Part shown: positions 7,753 to 61,500 of the stretch, piece by piece
Position numbering within the stretch: position 1 is the stretch's first letter
Layout of the letters: each line of letters begins with the position of its first letter
From: Plumapathes pennacea
Taxonomy: Eukaryota; Cnidaria; Anthozoa; Antipatharia; Myriopathidae
DNA length: 64,000 nt
Direction: 5' to 3'
NCBI GenBank assembly: GCA_964036295.1
Contig: OZ038463.1
Location: 23,919,069 to 23,983,068, forward strand
Translations under genes and position numbers: made by a program
Notes under the pieces: generated by a model
The model's input: only the letters and a program-made list of their open reading frames with translations
Database searches by the model: none
What the model was told of the DNA's origin: nothing

Positions 7753-10700
7753 TTAAACTGGTGCAGGAGGAAGAGGTCCTAGAACCTGTAGAGCCAGGCG
7801 AGCAGCGCTTTGTTCAGAACCTTTCTTGGTATGGCAATTAGAGCTGGTAAACTTTTTGCCTTCCACTGTCAATGTACATCCAAACATCCCCTGAACTTTA
7901 ACACATTCATACACTGGATTGCCAATTTTCTTTTTTTGACAGTGCTCCTGAAGTTCATTCTTGTATGACACAACAAAGGGTTGATGGGCCTGTATCATGT
8001 CTGCAATTGATTCTTCTCCACTTGAAGTTGTGTTTGTTGAAGAAGCAGCAGCTGTTGGAGGTTAAAATATCTCATGAGTGTGACCAAAAGGAGAAAATAA
8101 AAGATATTGTCAATGCCTTGCAGTGTATGATCTCCTGTCATGTGCTAATCTTACACCCAGAGCCTTCTAAGTTCTTACTATGCAATGCTACAGCAGATGA
8201 AATCAGAAGGTTCTGGAAAGGACTGGCCATCACCATATTGACCAAACAAACGATGTTAAAAATATGTTGCATAACATACAGTTGGCAACTCCTTTCTATT
8301 TTCCACCTCTGTTCCCTGTAAACTATGTCATACAAATTCCAAAACTATCTGGCTGACCCCCAATTCTGCAGCACAGTGTTTGAAGCCAGTGCACATAACT
8401 GCTGCCAAAAATGCTGACAAGTTTCCATGATTCAAAAATATGAAAAAAAAAAAAAAAAAAAAAAGTGAAATCTATGTTCCAAGTCCCAATTTTATGCCAA
8501 AAAAAGTAGTGTGCCTTACATGTAGCTATGGGTGTTTGTGGTATTGTTCAGTGGTGACTGAGAGAAAGTCCCTCCCCCCTCATGGAGTTATGTTGTTTGT
8601 GATGCAATGTGTCATGTGAACGAGAAAGAGAGAGGTAGAACTTGCAAAAACAAACAAACAAACAAAAGACAATGGCGGCGAGCAAATTAAACAGTGTTAT
8701 TGTTCTGTGAGATGAGTTATGGTGTACCTTCATGAAACAAGGCTGGTCTAATGGTACATACCTGAGGTAACTGCACCTGCAATGGTGTGATTACCAGAAG
8801 ATATCTGCATGCATGTTTGTATCACATTCTTCAGACTGGGTTCCGGAGGGGGCACTTGGTTCAATTTGCTCAGTACAAACTGTGCAACATTCTCCTCCGC
8901 CAACTTCCTGGTAATTTGTGGGGCAGTGCTCTGGTACACTTTGCCATTATAGACCAGAGTGGCCGTGAAACCTTGGCTTGAATTTCTGACCGCTTCATAT
9001 TTTGGTGGAGGCAAGTGGAACTTCTGGCAAAACTCATTCAGTTTGCTCTTATAGGCTACATTAGATGACATATTTGGTTCCACTTTGACTTTCTTGGCAG
9101 GTGGGGGGACTGGTGCACTGGTACTTTGGTTGGGCCTCTTCACACCTGCAAATTATTATTTCAACACTCAGTGTCAAAAATGTGGTTAAAAGAAATTTAG
9201 GCAAAGTGAACTTCAAGACAATGCTGGTCAGCAGTTGCTCCCCTGCAGTCAGGCTTGCCCCAGGGGCAGTTTTGCTTGCTCAACAGTCACTACTGATGGG
9301 TTTTTTTGGGCTATCCTTGCAACTGCTTAAGTTGCTTCATAACTGTGAGAGTCACTTTCACTCTCATTTTATGTTCCATGGATTCACATGATTGTGTGAT
9401 TCATCATGTACATACATCTTATTCGATGGTTTAGCGCGTAATACGGGCCGGTATTTTACGAGTTGCTCGTATTTTTCCGAGCCCCGCCGCGGGGCGAGGA
9501 AAAATGCGAGTAACGAGTAAAATGCCGGCCCGTATTATGCGCTAAACCATCGAATGAGGGATTTATTATATGACTGTGACGTAGTTTTACCTTTATATGA
9601 AATATATTTCAGCAAACATAAAACAGAGACTTCGAGCAAAACTGTTTTCACTCAATCCCAGGCAAAATGTGCGCACACTCATTTACACAAAGATTCACTT
9701 ACAGCTTCCAATCCGGTCATCGATTTAAAAATTTTGACAGAGAAAATTAAAGACGTTATGCTAGAAAATGATCGAAGTTCAATTCAGATTAAATGTGCTG
9801 AGATAAATGCGCTGGAGACGAAAATGCTTGCTTCGACAGAATAAATATTCAGCGAACAAACGTGCTTCGAGCGGTTCAAATCGATCACTTCGCTTAAACT
9901 TTCAACCATTTTTGTTCTTCAGTAGCAAGCAGCTTTGTACTCAAAACAGGGTTTTTATTTTCTCGGAGTAGTTAAGGAATAAACACAAGAACAGAGCCAG
10001 CGAATGTGTACGTTGAAGAATCTGAAACTTTGATAACACAACTAGGATTTTTACCGCCGACACGTTGTCAAGTTTTAGATTATTAACAACTCACCGATTT
10101 CCTGCCTGGTTGTAGAAAGTTTAAGACCCCTTCCAGCAAAGGAACCACTCAAAACAGTGTTCGTACACGGCGAAAATCATTTTGCAGTGTTTACAGTGAC
10201 GGCATCGTGGGGAAAACTTTACGGAGTCAGAACTGCCGTTTGTCCATGGCGATTGTTCGCTTTCCACCAACTGAACTGTGCTTTCTATTCCTTGACAAAT
10301 TATCCAGTAACAGTTTCTTTCGATGGAAGGGTCTTGTATCTGAAAAGTCATAGACTTTCGTTGCACCGTTTTACCTTGCACTCAGAAAAATCTTTCATTC
10401 ATTTGTGATACGCGCGCGTCTAAACCGGTCAAACCGGTTTTCTACAGTGTAATACGGATTTGAAGTGTGTAATACGCTCCCGTACCGGCACTCTGTTGCG
10501 ACCTTATATGGTAAAACTACGTCACAGTCATATAATAAAGTACAGTATGTCATACAGTATCATAACAGGTGATGTTGGTGAAGCTAAACAACAGCAATGC
10601 CTTGTCTTACCTGAGATTACTGGCTTAGTGTTGAACTCCACTGAAGGAGGAAAAAGTCCCAAAGTCTTCAGAGCTGTGAAAGCTGCATTTTGCTCGGCCT

Positions 10701-13535
10701 CCTTTCTGTCCTTGTGCATGCTACCACTTTTAAAAGGCTGTCCTGACACCTCCACTCTAGATGAGAAGCCAATATTACTATTTTTGAATGTTCTATAAAA
10801 GGGCACGGGCAGATGTTTCTTTTGGCAGTACTCTTGCAAACTGTTCTTGAATGAAATAAAGTTTGCTTCACCAGGCACGCGCACTGTGGACACAAAAAAG
10901 CACACGTGATCAAACACAGTGTACACATGTAGAAAATATTAAGATGATCACGAACAAAAGGTCTACAACCACAGCCCATTATCTACATAATAATACACTA
11001 AGACCATTTCCATCTGCTGGTGTGTCTGTAACGCTATTTCCCAGGTCTCCTCATTAAAAAATCCAACATGGCTGCCACTGTGATTGAAAGAAAGTACAAA
11101 TATTGGCCTTGTATTCCAACCACAGTTCTTTTCAAAAAATCTGCATTCTGAGCTAGAGCTTTGGCTAAAAAAATAGCTACACTAGGTTTGTCAGAATATA
11201 TATAATCAGTATATTATAACAACAGTTGCACTGGGTCATTGTCTAGAAACTAACATCTTGAGGTAGGACGCAAGTTGCAGCTTGATGGATCACAACATAA
11301 CATATCATTTTGACCTTAGGGCACATTCAATTGGGTCTATTCTGAAATAGGAGTAGTGATACTGATTGATAAAATATTTAGCTTTGGAGCTGAATTATGT
11401 CAAGATGTATCTGGAGCTGTTCAAAATGCCAGCATGAAAGTTTTGAAAACAATCCCTAAAGCAATTTCCCCCAGAAAAAGCCAAACTATAAATCCTTTTA
11501 GCTATGTCTATTCCAGAATTCAGTCAATCAAATGCACCCTTAGTCACCAAAGTCAAGATGTTTTAAAATACAGTAAGCAAAAGGGATCTGACATGAAATA
11601 ACATGTAAATCAACATTTCTGGAAAGTTTTAACAGCATACTCACATCTGTAGATCTCAAAAGACATTGGAGATACCACATAAATTGTGTCTTCAATACCT
11701 TTTTGATACTTCATCCCATGCAATATTAAAACTTTCCAAATACGTTGATTTGTTTACCTGGAGGTTACGGTATCTTAGAGATGAAAGTGGTTACTTTCAT
11801 GTGAAAGATCTCAGTTAGCTAATTTCCACCACAAATCACAAAGCATGATAAAGGTTTACAACTCTTACTTGGAAATGGATTCAAGCTGGTTAGAGTATCT
11901 CAGTTATTCTCTTCTGTATAAAACCATACCTTTAATACTGTTATTCTGTATTTGTCCTTGGGTTAGGCTGGATGAAAAATACCTAGTTGCTGTGTTAAAT
12001 CCAGATTGCTGTAAGCCAGGAGTTTGTAAACCAGGTTTTTGTAAGCCAGGATTTTGTAAACCAGATTTTTGCAAGCCAGACTGTTGAAAGCCAGACTTTT
12101 GTAAACCAGGTTTTTGCAAGCCAGATTGCTGAAAGCTAGGATTTTGCAAACCAGGTTTTCGCAAGCCAGAGTGCTGTAAGCCAGGGTTTTGTAGACCAGG
12201 TTTTTGCAAGTCAGATTGTTGAAAGCCAGGTTTTTGCAAACCAGATTGCTGTAAGCCAGGATTTTGTAGACCAGGTTTTTGCAAGCCAGATTGTTGAAAG
12301 CCGGGTTTTTGCAAGCCAGACTGCTGTAAGCCAGGATTTTGTAGACCAGGTTTTTGCAAGCCAGATTGTTGAAAGCCAGGCTTTTGCAAACTAGGTTTTT
12401 GCAAGCCAGATTGTTGTAAATCAGGATTTTGCAAACCAGGTTTTTGTAATCCAGAGTTTTGCACAACAGGTTTCTGTGAGTCAGGGTTTTGCAAGGAAGG
12501 TTTTTGAAGGCAATGTTGTTGTAAGCCAGGTTTTTTCAATGCCGACTTTAATTCAGGTGTCTGGACACTCATTTGGTTGGACGTTGCTTGGCTAGGTTTT
12601 GGTGTGATTGATGACCCATTTTGAGATGCTGTACTGCTCTTTTCACTTTTTACTGTTCCATTCAATTTAGGTCCTTTCCCCTGGCCTACACCAGGAGCCA
12701 CTTCCTCATGGCCACGGTCCCTGTCAGGCACCTGACCTAACCCACCTCTATCCTTTCCCTGTGATGCTAGTTCATTTGAAAATCTTCTGGGAGGGTAGCG
12801 CCCTCCACCCCTCGAAGAGGGTGGACCTTCTCTTGGATGATAATGTACTCCTCTATCATAACCATTACGACAATCATCGTAATCTCTCCAAAAGTCATTC
12901 CTGGGGGGTGGGGGCTGTCTGTAATAGCCACGAGGTGGTGGGGGTGCATCTGTGTAATCTCTTCTTGGATCATCCCAGGGGGGAGGTGGATGAGGATCTT
13001 CGTGATAAGGTCCTCCATAACGATCTCTTGGAGGAGGTGGGTAGTCATCGTGAAAGTCTGGGGGTGGTGGTGAGCGTTCTCTTCCATACTCTGGGGGTAG
13101 TGGTGGACGTTCTCTTCCATACTCTGGGGGTGGTGGTGGGCGTTCTCTTTCATACTCTGGGGGTGGTGGTGGGCGTTCTCTTCCATACTCTGGGGGTGGT
13201 GGTGGGCGTTCTCTTCTATAATCTGGGGGTGGTGGTGGGCGTTCTCTTTCATACTCTGGGGGTGGTAGTGGGCATTCTCTTCTATATTCTGGGGGTGGTG
13301 GTGGGCGTCCTCTTCCATACCCTGGGGGTGGTGGTGGGCGTTCTCTTTCATACTCTGGGGGAAGGGGTAGGCGTTCCCTTCGATACTCTGGGGGAGGTCG
13401 TGGGTGGTCTCTTCTGTAGTAGTCTGTTTGGTACTCTGGGGGAGGCAGTGGATAGTCTCTTCGGTAATCATCTGGGGGAGGTGGGTAGTCATTCAGGTAG
13501 TCTGGGGGAGGTGGCCCCAGGTCAAATCTTCGCAT
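7753..13535 (-). CDS. Triple dsRBD RNA-binding protein with proline/glutamine repeat head (possible HYL1/DRB-like)
   Basis: Four coding exons, joined by phase-1 introns: 13535-11930, 10883-10611, 9145-8762 and 8051-7753. All have AG acceptors and GT donors (for example AAAG/GTATGG, TCAG/GTAAGA, TCAG/GTATGT), and the sum is 2562 nt, or 853 residues plus stop. The start ATG is 2 nt inside an exon preceded by a pyrimidine-rich acceptor, so the 5'UTR is spliced. Residues 1-about 190 are PPPPPEY/RER repeats, and about 340-530 are LQKPG/LQNPG/LQQSG repeats. Three dsRBDs follow at about 546-613, 657-722 and 782-846, each with a YKNxLQExCQK-like first helix and a KxAExxAA-type last helix. That pattern resembles plant DRB domains, and cnidarians are known to carry HYL1-like proteins acting with Dicer in microRNA processing. 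Domain identity is clear; the HYL1 role is inference. ILF3- or Staufen-like alternatives lack this repeat head. Confidence 0.85.
8441..8464. repeat. Poly-A tract in intron
   Basis: A run of 24 A on the plus strand within the last intron of the dsRBD gene. It could be the tail of an old retroposed copy, but no body is recognisable next to it. Confidence 0.7.
9421..9555. repeat. 135-bp near-perfect GC-rich palindrome
   Basis: The left arm begins ATTCGATGGTTTAGCGCGTA and the right arm ends with its reverse complement, GCGCTAAACCATCGAAT. The arms run about 65 bp to a CCCCGCCGCGGGG centre near 9488, with only scattered mismatches. The sequence would form a strong hairpin in the pre-mRNA. It lies in the intron between dsRBD1 and dsRBD2 (9146-10610) and abuts the inverted-repeat element that begins at 9562. 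It is probably a foldback transposon or part of one. Confidence 0.9.
9562..10539. mobile_element. 978-bp element with 30-bp perfect terminal inverted repeats
   Basis: The left end, 9562-9591, begins TTTATTATATGACTGTGACG. The right end, 10510-10539, is its exact reverse complement over 30 bp. The interior has two short open frames, one on each strand (9554-9844 and 10121-10381); neither shows a transposase motif, so the element is probably non-autonomous. No clear target duplication is visible. The right subterminal part repeats CCGGTACGGG/GTAATACG words that also occur in the adjacent palindrome, suggesting the two are related or form one composite element. Confidence 0.8.
11990..12535 (-). 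repeat. 15-nt coding tandem repeat (LQKPG/LQNPG/LQQSG)
   Basis: A coding minisatellite in the first coding exon of the dsRBD gene. The 15-nt unit encodes five residues. Units alternate in a higher-order pattern of about 75 nt (QKPG, FQQSG, QKPG, QNPG, QQSG), which suggests recent unequal exchange. Because the unit length is a multiple of three, other frames also stay open; the alternative minus-strand frame 11963-12466 is a by-product. Confidence 0.9.
13050..13430 (-). repeat. 33-nt coding tandem repeat (RERPPPPPEYx)
   Basis: About eleven copies of an 11-residue unit, RERPPPPPEY plus G, E or R, near the start of the dsRBD protein. Neighbouring units are nearly identical at the nucleotide level. 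The repeats keep a 260-residue plus-strand frame (12761-13543) and a second minus-strand frame open; both are artefacts of the repeat. Confidence 0.9.
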
Positions 13536-48346: not shown

Positions 48347-51300
48347 CACATTAAATATTCAGCACGTGCGGCTACGGCACTAAAGTCCCGCGAATTTCAA
48401 ATTCTAGTTTTAGCGAAACTAAAGGCTCAACTTAATATTATTCATGTTGAAATTTACATTGTAGTGGTTTTATCTGGAGATTGCAAACTGAGGCTTTTTG
48501 GGGTTGGAAGCCAGAGTTAAACTTTGTAATAAAAGAGCAAGTGTTTGAACACTTTCTGATGCACATGCAGCTGTAACTATGCAAATTTTATGTTTGATGG
48601 AGACGGGGCTCTCCCATTTATAGCGAGCGCTCGCGTTAAGCGTCTCATAAGAAAACAATTCTACAAAAAAAAAAAAAAAAGAAAAAAAAGAAAAACCCAA
48701 AAAAACAAAAAGCAAAAACAAAAACAACAACAACACACATTTGTATTGGTTAGGTATAATTAAATTCTTAAAAATACAAAGCAAAATAAAAGTTCCCAGC
48801 ATGCTGAACAGAAAATCCCCCGAAAATAATAACAGAAATGTGTTCTTGTATTTATTTCGTCGCCATAAAAGATCTCGACAGGTAAAGCGTGTATGTTTCT
48901 TGTCAGTTATAAAAGACTCCGTCCGTTTATCCAAATTAACTTGTTTTCATTTAAAAAATAAGTTTTTTGCCCGACGGTTCTAAAAACATACGTGAAATGT
49001 AACTACACAAAGTCGGAGACACCGTTCAGATTGCGCGCGAGTACTATGCAAGTTCTCTTTTCGATACAAGCATTATAATACTATGAATAGTTGAGTGTGG
49101 AAAAAATGGCAGTTGGATCTCTTGCTTGGGTTCGAGCTGGTCAGACTGTCAATTCTCCTAACTCTACTCATACATTTTGTCCAGGGAAGGTTAGGAGAGT
49201 CAGCACTTTTAAATGTTTAACTAGCCCTCTCAACCACAAACCATTTGGGCGCCGAAATAGTCCAACTTGCAAAACACGTGTAAAATCCCGATTTCTTTTG
49301 AGTCGACGTTTTCGAGTTCGATTTTTCTATCACCATTCCGGCCTTTTCGTCTTCCGGAGGAAAAAAAGTAATAATTCGAAGTTCCTTTGTATTTGAAGCG
49401 GTTCTTTATTTTGAAGTTCATTGACATTCTTAATGGTCTCCAAAACTGTACCCAAGCCCGCGCATGCGCGAGAGCTACATTGCGTCAGGTGTAATAGAAT
49501 CTATATTCATTTTTATTCATATTCAATTTCTCAATAACGAACTGTCCGGATTATTGACTTGGCAGAGTGACACCAAACCGCAGATGGCTTCTAGAAATGG
49601 AGCGAGAGGTTTATTACGAAGACAGCGTGAAAAAAAAGCAAGGAAAACGCGAAGTTTGGGAGGCTTACTGGGCGATGCTGAGAAATAACACGATCTTCTT
49701 GTACGATGATGAAAGCGAAGACGTAAAAAACAATTTCGCCGAATGCTATGAAAAAATCCCTATCACTCCTGGCGCACACTGCGTTGTTGTCAAACGCAGA
49801 ATGTATAGTTTTCGCTTCAAACTTGTCACGGAAGCAAATGTGTATTTTTTAAAGTGTGCTTCGAACTTGCAAAGACACCGCTGGATGCACAACATTGAAC
49901 TGGCAGCCAAGAACAGAGTGTTTTTTCCACGCGAACAGCATGATGCTCTACTCCTTCAGCCAGTCCTTACAGACACCGATTTAAAACGGTATTTTTACGG
50001 CGAGGACAAGGAGAAAGATGAAGTCAATAACAATAGCAAAGACTACAAAGGCAAGTCTGCATTGTCTGTAACAAGAGCTTCCTCGGCAACATTCACCGTG
50101 AGGTCTGTGAAAGTGAAAGAGAGTCGCCGTGTGAAAAGTGCGACATTTCTGCCTTGGAACGCACGGTTACGTAAAGTTCATTCTAGCGACGCGGAAGGAT
50201 TGGCGCGCCGGCTTGAGAATCTGGCTTTGTCAGACGATGGGATGGGTAGTAATGCGGTATCTAGCAAGAAACAAACCGTTGGGCCTGACACAACGCCATA
50301 AATCATATTCGAAACGCGGAAGTGAGCTAAACCTATTTACTTCACATCGTCTCAAGTTCTGCTGCGAAGGAAAAAAGAAGAAGAAAAAAAAATATATATA
50401 TATATGCATCTGTTTATGCAAGCGAGATCATCAATTAAAATGACTTGTCTAGTTTTGCGCCTTCCAATCGGCCAAATTAATTATTTTTCCATTCAATTTT
50501 TGCCACCTGCTAGTGCTTGTAGTTCATGGATGTAATTTCAGTCGGGCACTGTTAGTCTAACCTTACTAAGAATAAGGAGAAGTCAAAATTACGTTTCGGT
50601 AAGTTTCCATGCCCTAAGACGACAAAAAACACTTTCAAAAGTTGCTTCTTGTGTAAAAATGGATAAGTTTCATTTGCATGTTTATTATACACGGAAATTA
50701 AATGCTGTCTGGAAAGGTGCGAATTTTCATCGTTACTATAAAGATTTAAAACCGCAATGGAATAATATAAGCCACGTAAATAGACCTCAAATAAAAAGAT
50801 ATGATTACATATTTTGCCATAACATGTGGTTTCGCTGCCGCAAACTTGCTGTTATTAGAAGCAATACGTGTAATGTCTTGTGAATTGTCCCTTTGCGTGG
50901 CAGCAATCAAGTCTGAAAGTTCAAATAGGAGAGGCTTCATTCGCTTGAAGACACGAGCCTGGTCTGCAATAATTAAATGTAGATTTCATTTAATGGGTAT
51001 AAATATTTATGGCGCTATAACAACAAAACAAACCTCGAGAAACGTAACCAACGAAAAAGAGATTGATGCAAGACAAATGTCCTTTTAGTATTCCCAGTAC
51101 TTCAAATTGTGTCAGATTCCCGGTATAAAGCAACTACCACCAGCCATTTTTTTACGATATTATATATTATTTGGAATAGGGGTCTGAAATGGCGTCGAAA
51201 CACCTTATATTATTATTTTGGAGTACCACCAGTGGGGGATTTCTTCTTCAAATTAAAACCAAACGCAAACTACCAAGGCTTCTGATTGGTTGAAAGTGTT

Positions 51301-51796
51301 TTCTTGCAAATTCTTTGATTGGCGATTTAATTACTTTGGTTTTGGTTTATACCCAAGTGTTTGTTAAAAGTTAATGATACCATGGAAACTACATTCGGAT
51401 GAATTACTGTACAATCAATTGTTTTCACATTTTTGGGCTCAGAAGATGCAAAATCTGAACTATACAGCTTATGAAAGTAGTGCCATAAAAAGTATAAAGA
51501 TCTCTCAAACTGATACATGTACATTACTGTGCATTAATTACATACTTTGTGCTCAAAGTTTTTCTTTTTCAGAATTTATCCCAATTAGCATTACAGCTTT
51601 TCTAAAAAGCCATGGCTTACTCGCACAAAAGTTTTGCAAGTTATATTTAAAAAACGGGTGCGAAAAAAAAGTTATCAAAGACAAAGCACAAATTTTTGAA
51701 ACAGCCTAGCTTTGGTAAAACATTTAGTCTAGTCGAGCGAGATTAAATGCTCAAGAAGTGTCAATCTGGCTAACCTGCGATCAGACCCTCTTTTCC
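48347..51796 (+). repeat. Segmental tandem duplication, copy 1 (about 3.45 kb)
   Basis: Begins at CACATTAAATATTCAGCACG and ends at GACCCTCTTTTCC. It is nearly identical to 51809-55291 at an offset of 3462 bp. It contains the intact PH-domain gene. Copy 1 lacks about 45-50 bp present in copy 2 near 48950 (the CTTAAGCTTTTCC stretch). The two copies are separated by 12 unshared bases. Confidence 0.95.
49597..50301 (+). CDS. PH-domain protein (intact copy)
   Basis: Frame from ATG at 49597 (MEREVYYEDS), 234 residues. A PH domain covers about residues 5-106: WEAYWAMLRNNTIFLYDDES forms the first strands, with CVVVKRRMYSFRFKL in the middle and the closing helix ending HRWMHNIELAAK, whose Trp is the family hallmark. 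The C-terminal half (LKRYFYGEDKEKDE onward) is basic, Ser-rich and unrecognised. A frame-open ATG-less extension and an acceptor-like site (ACTTGGCAG/AGTGAC, 49566) lie just upstream, so a spliced 5'UTR is likely. It probably binds phosphoinositides or acts as an adaptor; the layout loosely resembles STAP-type PH domains. An alternative ATG at 49584 opens only a short out-of-frame peptide. Confidence 0.8.
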   Translation: MEREVYYEDSVKKKQGKREVWEAYWAMLRNNTIFLYDDESEDVKNNFAECYEKIPITPGAHCVVVKRRMYSFRFKLVTEANVYFLKCASNLQRHRWMHNIELAAKNRVFFPREQHDALLLQPVLTDTDLKRYFYGEDKEKDEVNNNSKDYKGKSALSVTRASSATFTVRSVKVKESRRVKSATFLPWNARLRKVHSSDAEGLARRLENLALSDDGMGSNAVSSKKQTVGPDTTP

Positions 51797-51808: not shown

Positions 51809-54800
51809 CACATTAAATATTCAGCACGTGCGGCTACGGCACTAAAGTCCCGCGAATTTCAAATTCTAGTTTTAGCGAAACTAAAGCTCAACTTAATATT
51901 ATTCATGTTGAAATTTACGTTGTAGTGGTTTTATCTGGAGATTGCAAACTGAGGCTTTTTGGGGTTGGAAGCCAGAGTTAAACTTTGTAATAAAAGAGCA
52001 AGTGTTTGAACACTTTCTGATGCACGTGCAGCTGTAACTATGCAAATTTTATGTTTGATGGAGACGGGGCTCTCCCTTTTATAGCGAGCGCTCGCGTTAA
52101 GCGTCTCATAAGAAAACAATTCTACAAAAAAAAAAAAAAAAAAAAAAAAAGAAAAGACAAACAACAAAAGAAAAACCCCCAAAAACAAAAAAACAACAAC
52201 AAAAACAACAACAACACACATTTGTATTGGTTAGGTATAATTAAATTCTTAAAAATACAAAGCAAAATAAAAGTTCCCAGCACGCTGAACAGAAAATCCC
52301 CCGAAAATAATAACAGAAATGTGTTCTTGTATATATTTCGTCGCCATAAAAGATCTCGACAGGTAAAGCGTGTATGTTTCTTGTCAGTTATAAAAGACTC
52401 CGTCCGTTTATCCAAATTAACTCGTTTCCATTTGAAAGTTTTCTTAAGCTTTTCCGCCTTTCTAAAACGACGACTTAAAAAACAAGTTTTTTGCCCGACG
52501 GTTCTAAAGTCGAGGGTTTTGAAAACGTACGTGATATGTAACTACACAAAGTCGGAGACACCGTTCAGATTGCGCGCGAGTACTGTGCAAGTTCTCTTTT
52601 CGATACAAGCATTATAATATTATGAATAGTTGAGTGTGGAAAAAATGGCAGTTGGATCTCTTGCTTGGGTTCGAGCTGGTCAGACTGTCAATTCCCCTAA
52701 CTCTACTCATACATTTTGTCCAGGGAAGGTTAGGAGAGTCAGCACTTTTAAATGTTTAACTAGCCCTCTCAACCACAAACCATTTGGGCGCCGAAATAGT
52801 CCAACTTGCAAAACACGTGTAAAATCCCGATTTCTTTTGAGTCGACGTTTTCGAGTTCGATTTTTCTATCACCATTCCGGCCTTTTCGTCTTCCGGAGGG
52901 AAAAAGTAATAATTCGAAGTTCCTTTGTATTTGAAGCGGTTCTTTATTTTGAAGTTCATTGACATTCTTAATGGTCTCCAAAACTGTACCCAAGCCCGCG
53001 CATGCGCGAGAGCTACATTGCGTCAGGTGTAATAGAATCTATATTCATTTTTAGCTAATTTCTCAATCACGAATTGTCCTACTAGAAATGGAGTGAGAGG
53101 TTTATTACGAAGACAGCGTGAAAAAAAGGCAAGGAAAAGGCGAAGTTTGGGAGGCTTACTGGGGGATGCTGAGAAATAACACGATCTTCTTGTACGATGA
53201 TGAAAGCGAAGACGTAAAAAACAATTTCGCCGAATGCTACGAAAAAATCCCTATCACTCCTGGCGCACACTGCGTTGTTGTCAAACGCAGAATGTATAGT
53301 CTTCGCTTCAAACTTGTCACGAAAGCAAATGTGTATTTTTTAAAGTGTGCTTCGAACTTGCAAAGACACCGCTGGATGCACAACATTGAACTGGCAGCCA
53401 ATAACAGAGTGTTTTTTCCACGCGAACAGCATGATACTCTACTCCTTCAGCCAGTCCTTACAGACACCGATTTAAAACGGTATTTTTACGGCGAGGACAA
53501 GGAGAAAGATGAAGTCAATAACAATAGCAAAGACTACAAAGGCAAGTCTGCATTGTCTGTAACAAGAGCTTCCTCGGCAACATTCACCGTGAGGTCTGTG
53601 AAAGTGAAAGAGAGTCGCCGTGTGAAAAGTGCGACATTTCTGCCTTGGAACGCACGGTTACGTAAAGTTCATTCTAGCGACGCGGAAGAATTGGCGCGCC
53701 GGCTTGAGAATCTGGCTTTGTCAGACGATGGGATGGGTAGTAATGCGGTATCTAGCAAGAAACAAACCGTTGGGCCTGACACAACGCCATAAATCATATT
53801 CGAAACGCGGAAGTGAGCTAAACCTATTTACTTCACGTCGTCTCAAGTTCTGCTGCGAAGGAAAAAAAGAAGAAAAAAAAAAAAATATATATATATATAT
53901 ATATGCATCTGTTTATGCAAGCGAGATCATCAATTAAAATGACTTGTCTAGTTTTGCGCCTTCCAATCGGCCAAATTAATTATTTTTCCATTCAATTTTT
54001 GCCACCTGCTAGTGCTTGTAGTTCATGGATGTAATTTCAGTCGGTCACTGTTAGTCTAACCTTACTAAGAATAAGGAGAAGTCAAAATTACGTTTCGGTA
54101 AGTTTCCATGCCCTAAGACGACAAAAAACACTTTCAAAAGTTGCTTCTTGTGTAAAAATGGATAAGTTTCATTTGCATGTTTATTATACACGGAAATTAA
54201 ATGCTGTCTGGAAAGGTGCGAATTTTCATCGTTACTATAAAGATTTAAAACCGCAATGGAATAATATAAGCCACGTAAATAGACCTCAAATAAAAAGATA
54301 TGATTACATATTTTGCCATAACATGTGGTTTCGCTGCCGCAAACTTGCTGTTATTAGAAGCAATACGTGTAATGTCTTGTGAATTGTCCCTTTGCGTGGC
54401 AGCAATCAAGTCTGAAAGTTCAAATAGGAGAGGCTTCATTCGCTTGAAGACACGAGTCTGGTCTGCAATAATTAAATGTAGATTTCATTTAATGGGTATA
54501 AATATTTATGGCGCTATAACAACAAAACAAACCTTGAAAAACGTAACCAACGAAAAAGAGATTGATGCAAGACAAATATCTCAGACGTCCTTTTAGTATT
54601 CCCAGTACTTCAAATTGTGTCAGATTCCCGGTATAAAGTTTTTTTTTTACGATATTATATATTATTTGGAATAAGGGTCTGAAATGGCGTCGAAACACCT
54701 TATATTATTATTTTGGAGTACCACCAGTGGGGGATTTCTTCTTCAAATTAAAACCAAACGCAAACTACCAAGGCTTCTGATTGGTTGAAAGTGTTTTCTT

Positions 54801-55291
54801 GCAAATTCTTTGATTGGCGATTTAACTACTTTGGTTTTGGTTTATATCCAAGTGTTTGTTAAAAGTTAATGATACCATGGAAACTACATTCGGATGAATT
54901 ACTGTACAATCAATTGTTTTCACATTTTTGGGCTCAGAAGATGCAAAATCTAAACTATACAGTTTATGAAAGTAGTGCCATAAAAAGTATAAAGATCTCT
55001 CAAACTGATACATGTACATTACTGTGCATTAATTACATACTTTGTGCTCAAAGTTTTTCTTTTTCAGAATTTATCCCAATTAGCATTACAGCTTTTCAAA
55101 AAAGCCATGGCTTACTCGCACAAAAGTTTTGCAAGTTATATTTAAAAAACGAGTGCGAAAAAAAAGTTATCAAAGACAAAGCACAAATTTTTGAAACAGC
55201 CTAGCTTTGGTAAAACATTTAGTCTAGTCGAGCGAGATTAAATGCTCAAGAAGTGTCAATCTGGCTAACCTGCGATCAGACCCTCTTTTCC
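51809..55291 (+). repeat. Segmental tandem duplication, copy 2 (about 3.48 kb)
   Basis: Direct copy of 48347-51796. The flank right of it starts with the left arm of a hairpin (55283-55386). Relative to copy 1 it has lost about 45 bp just before the PH frame (53055-53085) and retains extra sequence at 52440-52520. AT dinucleotide and poly-A tracts differ in length between copies. Confidence 0.95.
53088..53792 (+). pseudogene. PH-domain gene, duplicated copy with disabled start
   Basis: Same reading frame as 49597-50301, but the start reads ATG GAG TGA (stop at 53094-53096, CGA in the intact copy), and the upstream acceptor-like region is deleted. The rest of the frame is open to the normal stop. 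The first in-frame ATG is at 53166, which would drop the first strand of the PH domain. By eye, eight amino-acid replacements against one silent change separate it from the intact copy (for example SFRF to SLRF, VTEA to VTKA), as expected for relaxed selection. A truncated protein from 53166 cannot be excluded. Confidence 0.75.
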
Positions 55292-58557: not shown

Positions 58558-61500
58558 TCAAGAGTGCAGGGCTCCCGTAATTTTTCGCACCCGAGTTGCG
58601 TCAAATTTCCCAGTACTGTCGTCATCCACAGTTGTGGCTGGTACTCCGACGCATGCGTGCATAATTTCCGGGCTTTCTGACAAGATCTGGACAATGCGCG
58701 CCGCAGATGGTCGGTCCAGAGGATCCCAGCTCCAACACATGCGTAGTAGGCTCGCACTGTAAGGATGTGAAGAAAACAAAAAGTACATATGTGGTAAAAT
58801 TTAGTATGACTCGATATCAAGTAATTGTAAACATGATGGGGCTGCATCCGGTAGACCGGTAGCTTGCGAAAACAGACGGATTTTCTGCAAAAACGAATCG
58901 ACAAGCGCTTGAAGGGGAATATGGAAAGCAATATGGCTAGCCAAAACACTCCACTCGTGGCTAGCGATAGATGTTGCCGGGATGACCTAAGTATCAGGTC
59001 CAAAGGGGAAAGGACACAGTTGGTGGGTCAGTAAGACTTGAGTGTAAATGTCCAATTTGAACAAATAGAGCAAATCAACAACTCACGCTTCAAATGTGCA
59101 CTGAGGTGGAACTGAGATAGTCTCGCCTCCACAAACTCGCTCCAAGACCTCTGCGTTTGAGAGACCCTGATACGGGAAGCCCCCAAACGTAAGGAGCTCC
59201 CAGAGCGTGACACCATAAGACCACACGTCTGTGTACCGAGTGAACATGCCCTCCCTTAGAGACTCAGGGGACATCCAGCGAACAGGGAACATTCCTGAAA
59301 CAAAACAAGGAAAAACGTCGTTCAAGTTTGCTTGCAATGAATAACAAGGACTATTGAGGGAAAAAATGAGCAAACTGATGGTTGAAAAGTACTCACAGTT
59401 TAACCTTCTCACTCCTGAGCTTAAAACACAAATTTTTCCAGCCATTCAAGAAGATGTATGGGTGATGCAGTGATAATTGGTAGTTGAATCAGCGTTTCTC
59501 TGAGCAAGCAATAAAATGCCACTGGGTTCACCATTCTCACGAGCGAACGGTCTTGCCATATTTTTGAAATGTGCTACCGTTTCTTTGTTCTTCGCACTTT
59601 TAGTGGAACGCATTCGTTTTTTCTTGGCATGCACGTATATAAAGACTGCCTGTTTCCATAGAAACTGACCTTTTTTCTCGTAGCGGTAGTAATCGGATCC
59701 TATCAGTGGCCTAGACAAGCCAAAGTCGCCAATCTTGACCACATTACCAAAACCAACCATACAGTTCCTTAATGCCAAGTCCCTAAAGTGCAAAATGCTA
59801 TCAGCAAACACATCACTATATATCAAACTACTCATCATCCACATACAATATTAGAAAGCTCCATAGATCATTCCACAATGCACGTCATCACATTGCACGA
59901 CGCAGGAGCGCCTCATATGACACTATACTGCACCATATGATATGGGTCTGCTATACTATTCTACACTTCATTACAACTGCTTTACTGTCAGTACATTACA
60001 GCACATTTCAGCAACGCACACTCTACGACGCTGCACACCACTAAGTATCTCTTCTTCACTCACTGCGATGATCAAACTCACTATTCATTCCTATCCGCAG
60101 TTCATATATATGAGTTTATCATATATACATCATATCACACTGTACTACACCACATTATTCTATACTACACTAACACTAAACTAAACTACACTACTATATT
60201 GTGCTACACCACACTATTCTACACTACACTAACACTAAACTAACACTAAACTAAACTCCACTGTACTACACCACACACACTACACTTCACTAACAGTAAA
60301 CTAATAGTAAACTAAACTAAACTACACTACTACATGGCACTGCACTGCACAACACAACACTAAACTACAGTACAGTGGCTATACTACACTACACTACACT
60401 ACACTACACTGCATTACACTACACTCTAAGCTCACATGATTATACCAAGCTGATTATTACACCGTAGTTGTGTTAGTTGGGGTTGTGTTGGTAATGTGGT
60501 TTATAAGTTTAGCTCAAACGAACAAACACACAAACAATTACTGCACGAACTACCTGTGAACAAACTTGTTCTTAGCGAGATACTGTAACCCCCGCGCAAT
60601 ATCCATTGCCATGGCAGTGAGTCGCCGTGGAACCACTTCATCCGCCTGTTGCACGTGTAACACAAATATTAGCCCCGCATACGAATTGATGTGGTGCTCA
60701 GCGTAGCCAACAGTTTTAACTACAACTCAAACTGTTAATAAATAGCTGTAATAGAGGAGTAGAACTACGATTTGGTTTAACTAGACCTATAAGTATACAC
60801 AATATTTTAAACTGTACTATATTCTAATCCACGAACGTAACTATACGTAAATTGAATGTCTCCGTTGTTTGAAGACTGACAGAAAATAACAGAGCTATGA
60901 ATAATAACCAGCTGAGGTAAAGCAGAATTATGGTCAATGTTTTGATTTGTTCAAGGACAAATAGCAACAAATGATTTGATATAAAATGATCACAGACCTC
61001 TGGGGATCCCGGTTGATTCATAACACGCCTTCTTGCCAGCAAGAAACTTTTTAAATCACCTGGAAATAATGAATTTCAAAGAGGACTTTTAGTTCCTCTA
61101 TTTTGCTACGCAAAATCGAAGAACGGCGCATTCTAATGTTTCAATTGATGAAGCTGCATTTTAAAGGTAGAGCCTTAGAAGCAATTATGTGTATTTGTGT
61201 GCTGGTGAGGGGTGGAGGTAGGCGGGTTGAGTAGGGAAACAATGTTGACGGAGATTTAAAGACTCACCGTGAATCATGAGTTCCATTACAATGTACACAG
61301 GCTCGCCTACAGTACACACGGCCAGCAGTTGAACGATGTTGTCGTGCGAAAATTGTTTCATTTTGTCGGCTTCGCTTAAAAACTCCACCTGAAAGAAAAA
61401 ACACGAGAACTTGCTTATACTTTTTTTTACACTTTTATTTTATTTTAATTCCTAATTAATACAGAAGTTGGAATGACCCGCAATCGAGGCGGGTCAGTCT

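Follow-up and report, generated by a model that had tools for sequence, protein, structure and literature searches.

The 64,000-nucleotide stretch of Plumapathes pennacea DNA analyzed here (the window) contains a gene that probably encodes a cnidarian HYL1-like dsRNA-binding protein of the plant-DRB class. At the level of the class, the designation "cnidarian HYL1-like" is supported. The sequence-only reading had proposed a new form of HYL1-like protein; the class stood and the novelty did not, since the gene looks like a member of a known family. Cnidarian HYL1-like proteins have been used to argue that miRNA biogenesis is common to plants and animals, and a clean gene model provides one more likely member together with a testable hypothesis on its head.

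A four-exon gene with one dsRBD in each of exons 2 to 4

The gene lies on the minus strand, with the initial M at 13535 and the end of the stop codon at 7753. With splicing read from the sequence, its coding sequence of 2562 nt is predicted to encode a protein of 853 amino acids and 94.8 kDa. Coding exon 1 (11930-13535) is an open frame from the M to the donor AAAG/GTATGG and encodes a 535-residue head, and coding exons 2 (10611-10883), 3 (8762-9145) and 4 (7753-8051) each encode one dsRBD, the last followed by the stop codon. The three introns are all in phase 1, and the coordinates, strand and four-exon model that had been put forward were reproduced, with GT-AG borders and matching phase. 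An acceptor-like site sits immediately 5' of the ATG and makes an untranslated exon further 5' likely; the search upstream, up to 22.9 kb, yielded no convincing coding exon.

The second intron carries a repeat element (9562-10539, no strand assigned) with 30-bp perfect inverted ends, which is outside the protein. A genome search with 304 nt of this element gave 348 candidates, 40 of which were scored, and the 39 non-self ones were 96-99% identical. Two 70-nt arms that are 87% complementary (9418-9558) adjoin the element.

The three dsRBDs resemble those of plant DRB proteins

Pfam dsrm matched three stretches of the protein (6.6e-33 for the whole protein), and dsRBD1 (8.7e-11), dsRBD2 (1.3e-10) and dsRBD3 (2.3e-15) were each above the cut-off as single domains. 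Weaker dsRBD-like families were also above the cut-off for the whole protein, namely DND1_DSRM (3.1e-8), DSRM_DHX29 (1.9e-6) and dsrm_Ferlin (5.8e-6). No deaminase or DZF domain was found in the protein by Pfam.

We searched the three-dsRBD region against the PDB with phmmer. The top five matches were plant DRB4 and HYL1, followed by 1whn and DRB2; 1whn is titled as mouse cDNA only, and we take it to be DUS2, with which the neighbouring dihydrouridine-synthase hits agree. In this search, dsRBD2 aligned with Arabidopsis HYL1 dsRBD1. Searched singly, dsRBD1 had plant DRB4 as its top PDB match (8.3e-9), and dsRBD3 matched DRB4 (1e-8) and HYL1 dsRBD2 (2e-8). For dsRBD1 and dsRBD3, the best plant DRB chains ranked above the DUS2 chains, but some plant chains did not. 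None of the 23 PDB sequences matched by the three-dsRBD region at E <=1 was a TARBP2, PACT, Loqs, ILF3, STAU or ADAR chain, and DGCR8 and RNase III chains were present among them, weakly. With E values up to 10, dsRBD1 alone gave a weak match (0.006) to R2D2, an animal DRB protein, and dsRBD3 alone matched DGCR8 (5e-4); the third dsRBD of TRBP, PACT or Loqs was not among the 25 PDB hits of dsRBD3.

The GPxH motif of the strand 1-2 loop is missing in all three window dsRBDs, whereas HYL1 dsRBD1 has it; it is also missing in HYL1 dsRBD2 and in the three dsRBDs of a paralogue on contig C7. Basic motifs of helix 2 (RKEAE, RKLAE and KKGSE) are retained in the window dsRBDs. Plant HYL1/DRB proteins contain two dsRBDs and are not known to have a comparable repeat head, and plant HYL1/DRB1 itself is excluded as the identity of the gene by the three dsRBDs and the cnidarian genome. 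Dias et al. (PMC5435087) report that affinity shifts map to the strand 1-2 loop and a small stretch of helix 2. Because GPxH is missing but the helix-2 basic motif is kept, each dsRBD on its own would be expected to be a weak RNA binder, and the three may act jointly or serve partly as protein-binding surfaces. Their joint targets would be short RNA hairpins, for example pre-miRNA.

Placement of the dsRBDs in a 40-row tree

The dsRBD tree comprised 40 rows, 23 from the genome and 17 from PDB chains, the latter taken from HMMER printouts. The genome rows were 21 of the 24 dsrm matches plus dsRBD3 of the C7 paralogue and the third dsRBD of a TRBP-type gene, these two read by eye; C2:35397628, which has an internal stop, and the partial matches C2:35398594 and C11:360756 were left out. 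The STAU, ADAR and NKRF names of genome rows are presumptive, assigned by eye, and DRB2 d1, DRB3 d1, Loqs and R2D2 are absent from the tree. The window domains clustered with those of the C7 paralogue, plant DRB1/2/3/4, DUS2 and a C2 single-dsRBD gene, and this cluster was separated from all other rows, which include animal DRB, STAU, ADAR, ILF3 and DGCR8, with an SH-aLRT of 90.5 and a UFBoot of 95. Together with DRB4 and HYL1 as top PDB matches, this split bears out the earlier description of the dsRBDs as plant-DRB-like.

The dsRBDs are short, and the finer branching of the tree is poorly separated. A clade of the window, C7 and plant DRB domains had an AU p of 0.56, with a log-likelihood 0.6 under the best tree; the AU value was 0.46 for a clade of the window domains with DUS2 and 0.32 for the three window domains as a single clade, neither of which is rejected. 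Grouping the window domains with DGCR8 was rejected by the AU test (0.024) but not by the SH test (0.29), and the DGCR8-like gene of the genome itself sits elsewhere. A one-to-one pairing of the window domains with the three C7 domains fitted poorly, with an AU value of 0.09-0.10 in full searches and 0.010 with quick constraint trees.

Since the DUS2 dsRBD lies close by in the tree, "plant-like" may amount to "unspecialised" instead of marking one-to-one HYL1 orthologues. The gene could encode an animal dsRBD protein that was separately derived from a DUS2-like or other unspecialised dsRBD and is unrelated to Dicer, such as a WW-tethered mRNA-processing factor. PPxY and Arg-rich heads are frequent in nuclear RNA-processing proteins, which speaks for such an origin, as do the pairing of dsRBD1 with DUS2 (SH-aLRT 77, UFBoot 91), the AU value of the window-DUS2 clade and the presence of a TRBP-type gene elsewhere in the genome. 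We nonetheless consider it rather unlikely, given that the best plant DRB chains beat the DUS2 chains for dsRBD1 and dsRBD3 and that Nematostella Hyl1La likewise consists of three tandem dsRBDs and a long non-dsRBD part (PMC9098223).

The tree was also examined for a grouping with ILF3, STAU or ADAR, which the sequence-only reading had named as refuting its proposal; the AU test rejected placement of the window domains with two STAU pairs (<0.001 and 0.0027) and with ADAR2/ILF3 (0.0009; the genome's two further ADAR genes had rows in the tree but lay outside the constraint). Placement with TRBP d2 was likewise rejected (p <0.003). These tests used the full alignment only, and every pair or group constrained in them is monophyletic in the best tree. 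Constraints that joined all TRBP-type d1/d2 or all STAU domains to the window domains, run on a trimmed alignment as well, were discarded, since neither set forms a monophyletic group in the best tree. TARBP2, PACT and Loquacious are Dicer partners that also have three dsRBDs, but of another class, and their third dsRBD is absent from the 25 PDB hits of dsRBD3 of the window gene, whereas a TRBP-type gene on contig C9 does have such a match. These observations, the AU rejections and the Pfam result for deaminase and DZF domains make a relative of TRBP/PACT/Loqs, Staufen, ADAR or ILF3 hardly credible, despite the shared number of dsRBDs with TRBP and the R2D2 match of dsRBD1.

A single-dsRBD gene at C2:23482576-23482758 lies near the plant-DRB-like cluster and gave a weak match to LIX1 (0.0022), below the cut-off.

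Relation to Nematostella Hyl1La and Hyl1Lb

Nematostella possesses two HYL1-like genes, Hyl1La and Hyl1Lb (PMC9098223, PMC10548089), which are the product of an ancient cnidarian duplication (PMC10548089). Hyl1La is reported to contain three DSRM domains, to be ubiquitous, to bind pre-miRNA and to be required for the levels of most miRNAs, and Hyl1Lb is reported to be cnidocyte-specific and to have further domains (PMC9098223). The window gene has in common with Hyl1La its three dsRBDs, its plant-like DRB class, the large size of its protein and its cnidarian source, and by homology it may function in small-RNA biogenesis.

The genome contains a second multi-dsRBD gene of the plant-DRB class, the C7 paralogue (C7:18233071-18237500), which has three dsRBDs and DRB4 as its best PDB match (1.2e-13); these are the two multi-dsRBD genes of this class found, the same number as the Hyl1L genes described for Nematostella. 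A Nudix exon lies on the same strand some 2.9 kb further downstream and is possibly part of the C7 gene; with this possible extra domain the C7 gene may fit Hyl1Lb better. By domain content, we lean toward equating the window gene with Hyl1La and the C7 gene with Hyl1Lb. The exon number lends no support to this assignment, as Hyl1La has 11 exons in Nematostella and the window gene has 4 coding exons.

The long head had been regarded as unusual for the family, a view that does not hold. For Nematostella Hyl1La, the tagged construct was put together from pieces of DNA 1.6 and 1.7 kb long, and its band on the blot is marked at 110 kDa; the fluorescent marker is cleaved off via a P2A peptide (PMC9098223). 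This size is far beyond the need of three dsRBDs, indicating that a long extra region is no peculiarity of the window gene. The make-up of the head is striking in detail; a long extra region as such is not new for the HYL1-like family. Among the papers listed by a literature search on HYL1-like proteins with proline-rich or disordered heads, no title was to the point.

The head contains a PPxY array and a Q-rich array

The sequence-only reading had described three dsRBDs behind a head of about 530 residues made up of tandem repeats. The dsRBDs and the length of the head were confirmed, but tandem repeats cover just two parts of it, a PPxY array and a Q-rich array. The PPxY array (13057-13414, minus strand) has a 33-nt period, corresponding to an 11-residue unit, and 10.8 copies (TRF score 548). 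It contains 10 of the 12 PPxY motifs of the head, all of which lie within residues 10-150. This number exceeds that expected from the composition of the first 170 amino acids, for which 2000 shuffles gave a mean of 2.6 and a maximum of 8. The Q-rich array was detected by TRF at 12025-12547 on the minus strand (period 75, score 480), and a list of its units resolved it into 35 pentapeptides, mostly [GSD][LF]Q[KNQ][PS], that span 175 amino acids (residues 337-511; 12003-12527). About 175 non-tandem residues, among which Gly, Pro, Ser and Arg are the most abundant, separate the two arrays.

We compared the units of each array at the codon level. Between units of the Q-rich array, pN/pS was 0.42 in the coding frame; the shifted frames gave 1.0 and 5.9. 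This contrast supports translation of the array and selection on it at the protein level. The PPxY array gave no codon-level signal, with a pN/pS of 0.89 in frame and 0.47 in one shifted frame.

The codon-level constraint in the frame of exon 1 bears on whether the repeat exon could belong to another gene, or be skipped, with the real start at or near the first dsRBD. The join of exon 1 to exon 2 is predicted from sequence, and an unspliced exon 1 would run 8 codons beyond the donor before reaching a stop, both of which would be compatible with a separate exon. This arrangement is nevertheless quite improbable in view of the constraint on the Q-rich array, the open frame of 535 codons, its good donor, a phase that fits exon 2 and the comparably large Nematostella Hyl1La (PMC9098223).

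Taking the head as part of the HYL1-like protein, we envisage it as a disordered recruitment arm, in which a PPxY array for WW partners would be followed by the Q-rich array. Group I WW domains have PPxY as their classical ligand. A search of the genome listed 26 WW matches. The DGCR8-like gene on contig C6 also contains a WW domain, which was spotted by eye and matches DGCR8 in the PDB at 7e-14; it falls narrowly below the Pfam cut-off and is absent from the 26 matches. Candidate WW partners are Pasha/DGCR8, with its WW domain in the genome, and NEDD4-type ligases. In human cells, the PPxY motifs of WBP2 were reported to be dispensable for DGCR8 binding (PMC8200299). That the 12-copy PPxY head is a dedicated scaffold that tethers WW-domain proteins to a HYL1-like cofactor of Dicer is a long shot; if true, the Drosha step would be physically tied to the Dicer step, or Hyl1L levels would be under ubiquitin control. 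A role of the head in condensate formation is possible.

Two genes on contig C9 with dsRBDs matching TARBP2

A three-dsRBD gene on the minus strand of contig C9 (C9:13202300-13205600) has second and third domains of the TRBP/PACT/Loqs type. The whole query matched TARBP2 d2 at 2.9e-21, entirely from its dsRBD2, which also joined TARBP2 d2 in the tree (89/98); the exon join within this domain was inferred. Its dsRBD3 matched the third dsRBD of PACT (5.2e-14) and also TARBP2 and Loqs, and grouped with TARBP2 d3 and PACT d3 (99.4/100). For its dsRBD1, the match to TRBP is not clear (2 bits) and the position in the tree is not firm. A second gene on this 17.4-Mb contig (C9:17045377-17046627, minus strand) contains two dsRBDs and matched TARBP2 (1.1e-23) ahead of STAU (2.2e-18) in the PDB; its first dsRBD leans to a STAU pair in the 40-row tree (46/81).

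Tripathi et al. 2022 and a 2022 review state that homologues of PACT, Loqs and TRBP are missing from cnidarians. Dias et al. (PMC5435087) mention "DRB-like proteins from cnidaria" within the animal DRB/Staufen clade, so the published claim of absence is not unanimous. The occurrence in one genome of HYL1-like genes and a gene with TRBP/PACT/Loqs-type dsRBDs bears on the published view of a lack of the latter type in cnidarians and a replacement of one by the other in bilaterians. If both products are Dicer partners, two kinds, Hyl1L and TRBP-type, would operate in parallel in one animal; the product of the TRBP-type gene on C9 could be the main Dicer partner, a possibility that counts against the main reading of the window gene.

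Cnidarian markers of the genome

The assembly searched consists of 24 contigs and 290 Mb. A 21-nt query presumed to be miR-2022 was found without mismatch on the minus strand at C12:3187665-3187685, and the reversed pattern gave 0 hits. The site forms the 3' arm of a folded hairpin (z -2.2), and 3 of 200 shuffles folded equally well. A second site, with one mismatch, is at C2:21091335. miR-2022 is stated to be present in every cnidarian genome sequenced to date (PMC10548089).

Contig 24 is the mitochondrial genome (17.7 kb). In the 17.0 of its 17.7 kb that were scanned, tRNA-Met and tRNA-Trp were the only tRNA hits in the standard mode, and a looser mode gave at least one further candidate. 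The cox1 gene, identified by Pfam, is split by an intron carrying a reading frame that was read by eye as LAGLIDADG type, and nad1 and nad3 are positioned as if within a split nad5, with gene names assigned by eye. Such a layout points to an anthozoan, with sea anemones as the closest likeness. The miR-2022 hairpin and the two standard-mode tRNA hits of the mitochondrial genome agree with the cnidarian source that had been presumed from the window.

Other features of the window

Two near-identical open reading frames about 3.5 kb apart were noted by eye at 49558-51706 and 53097-55201, and their near-identity suggests a recent tandem duplication. A satellite-like array with a period of about 59-61 and ACTAC-like units was detected by TRF at 60137-60425.
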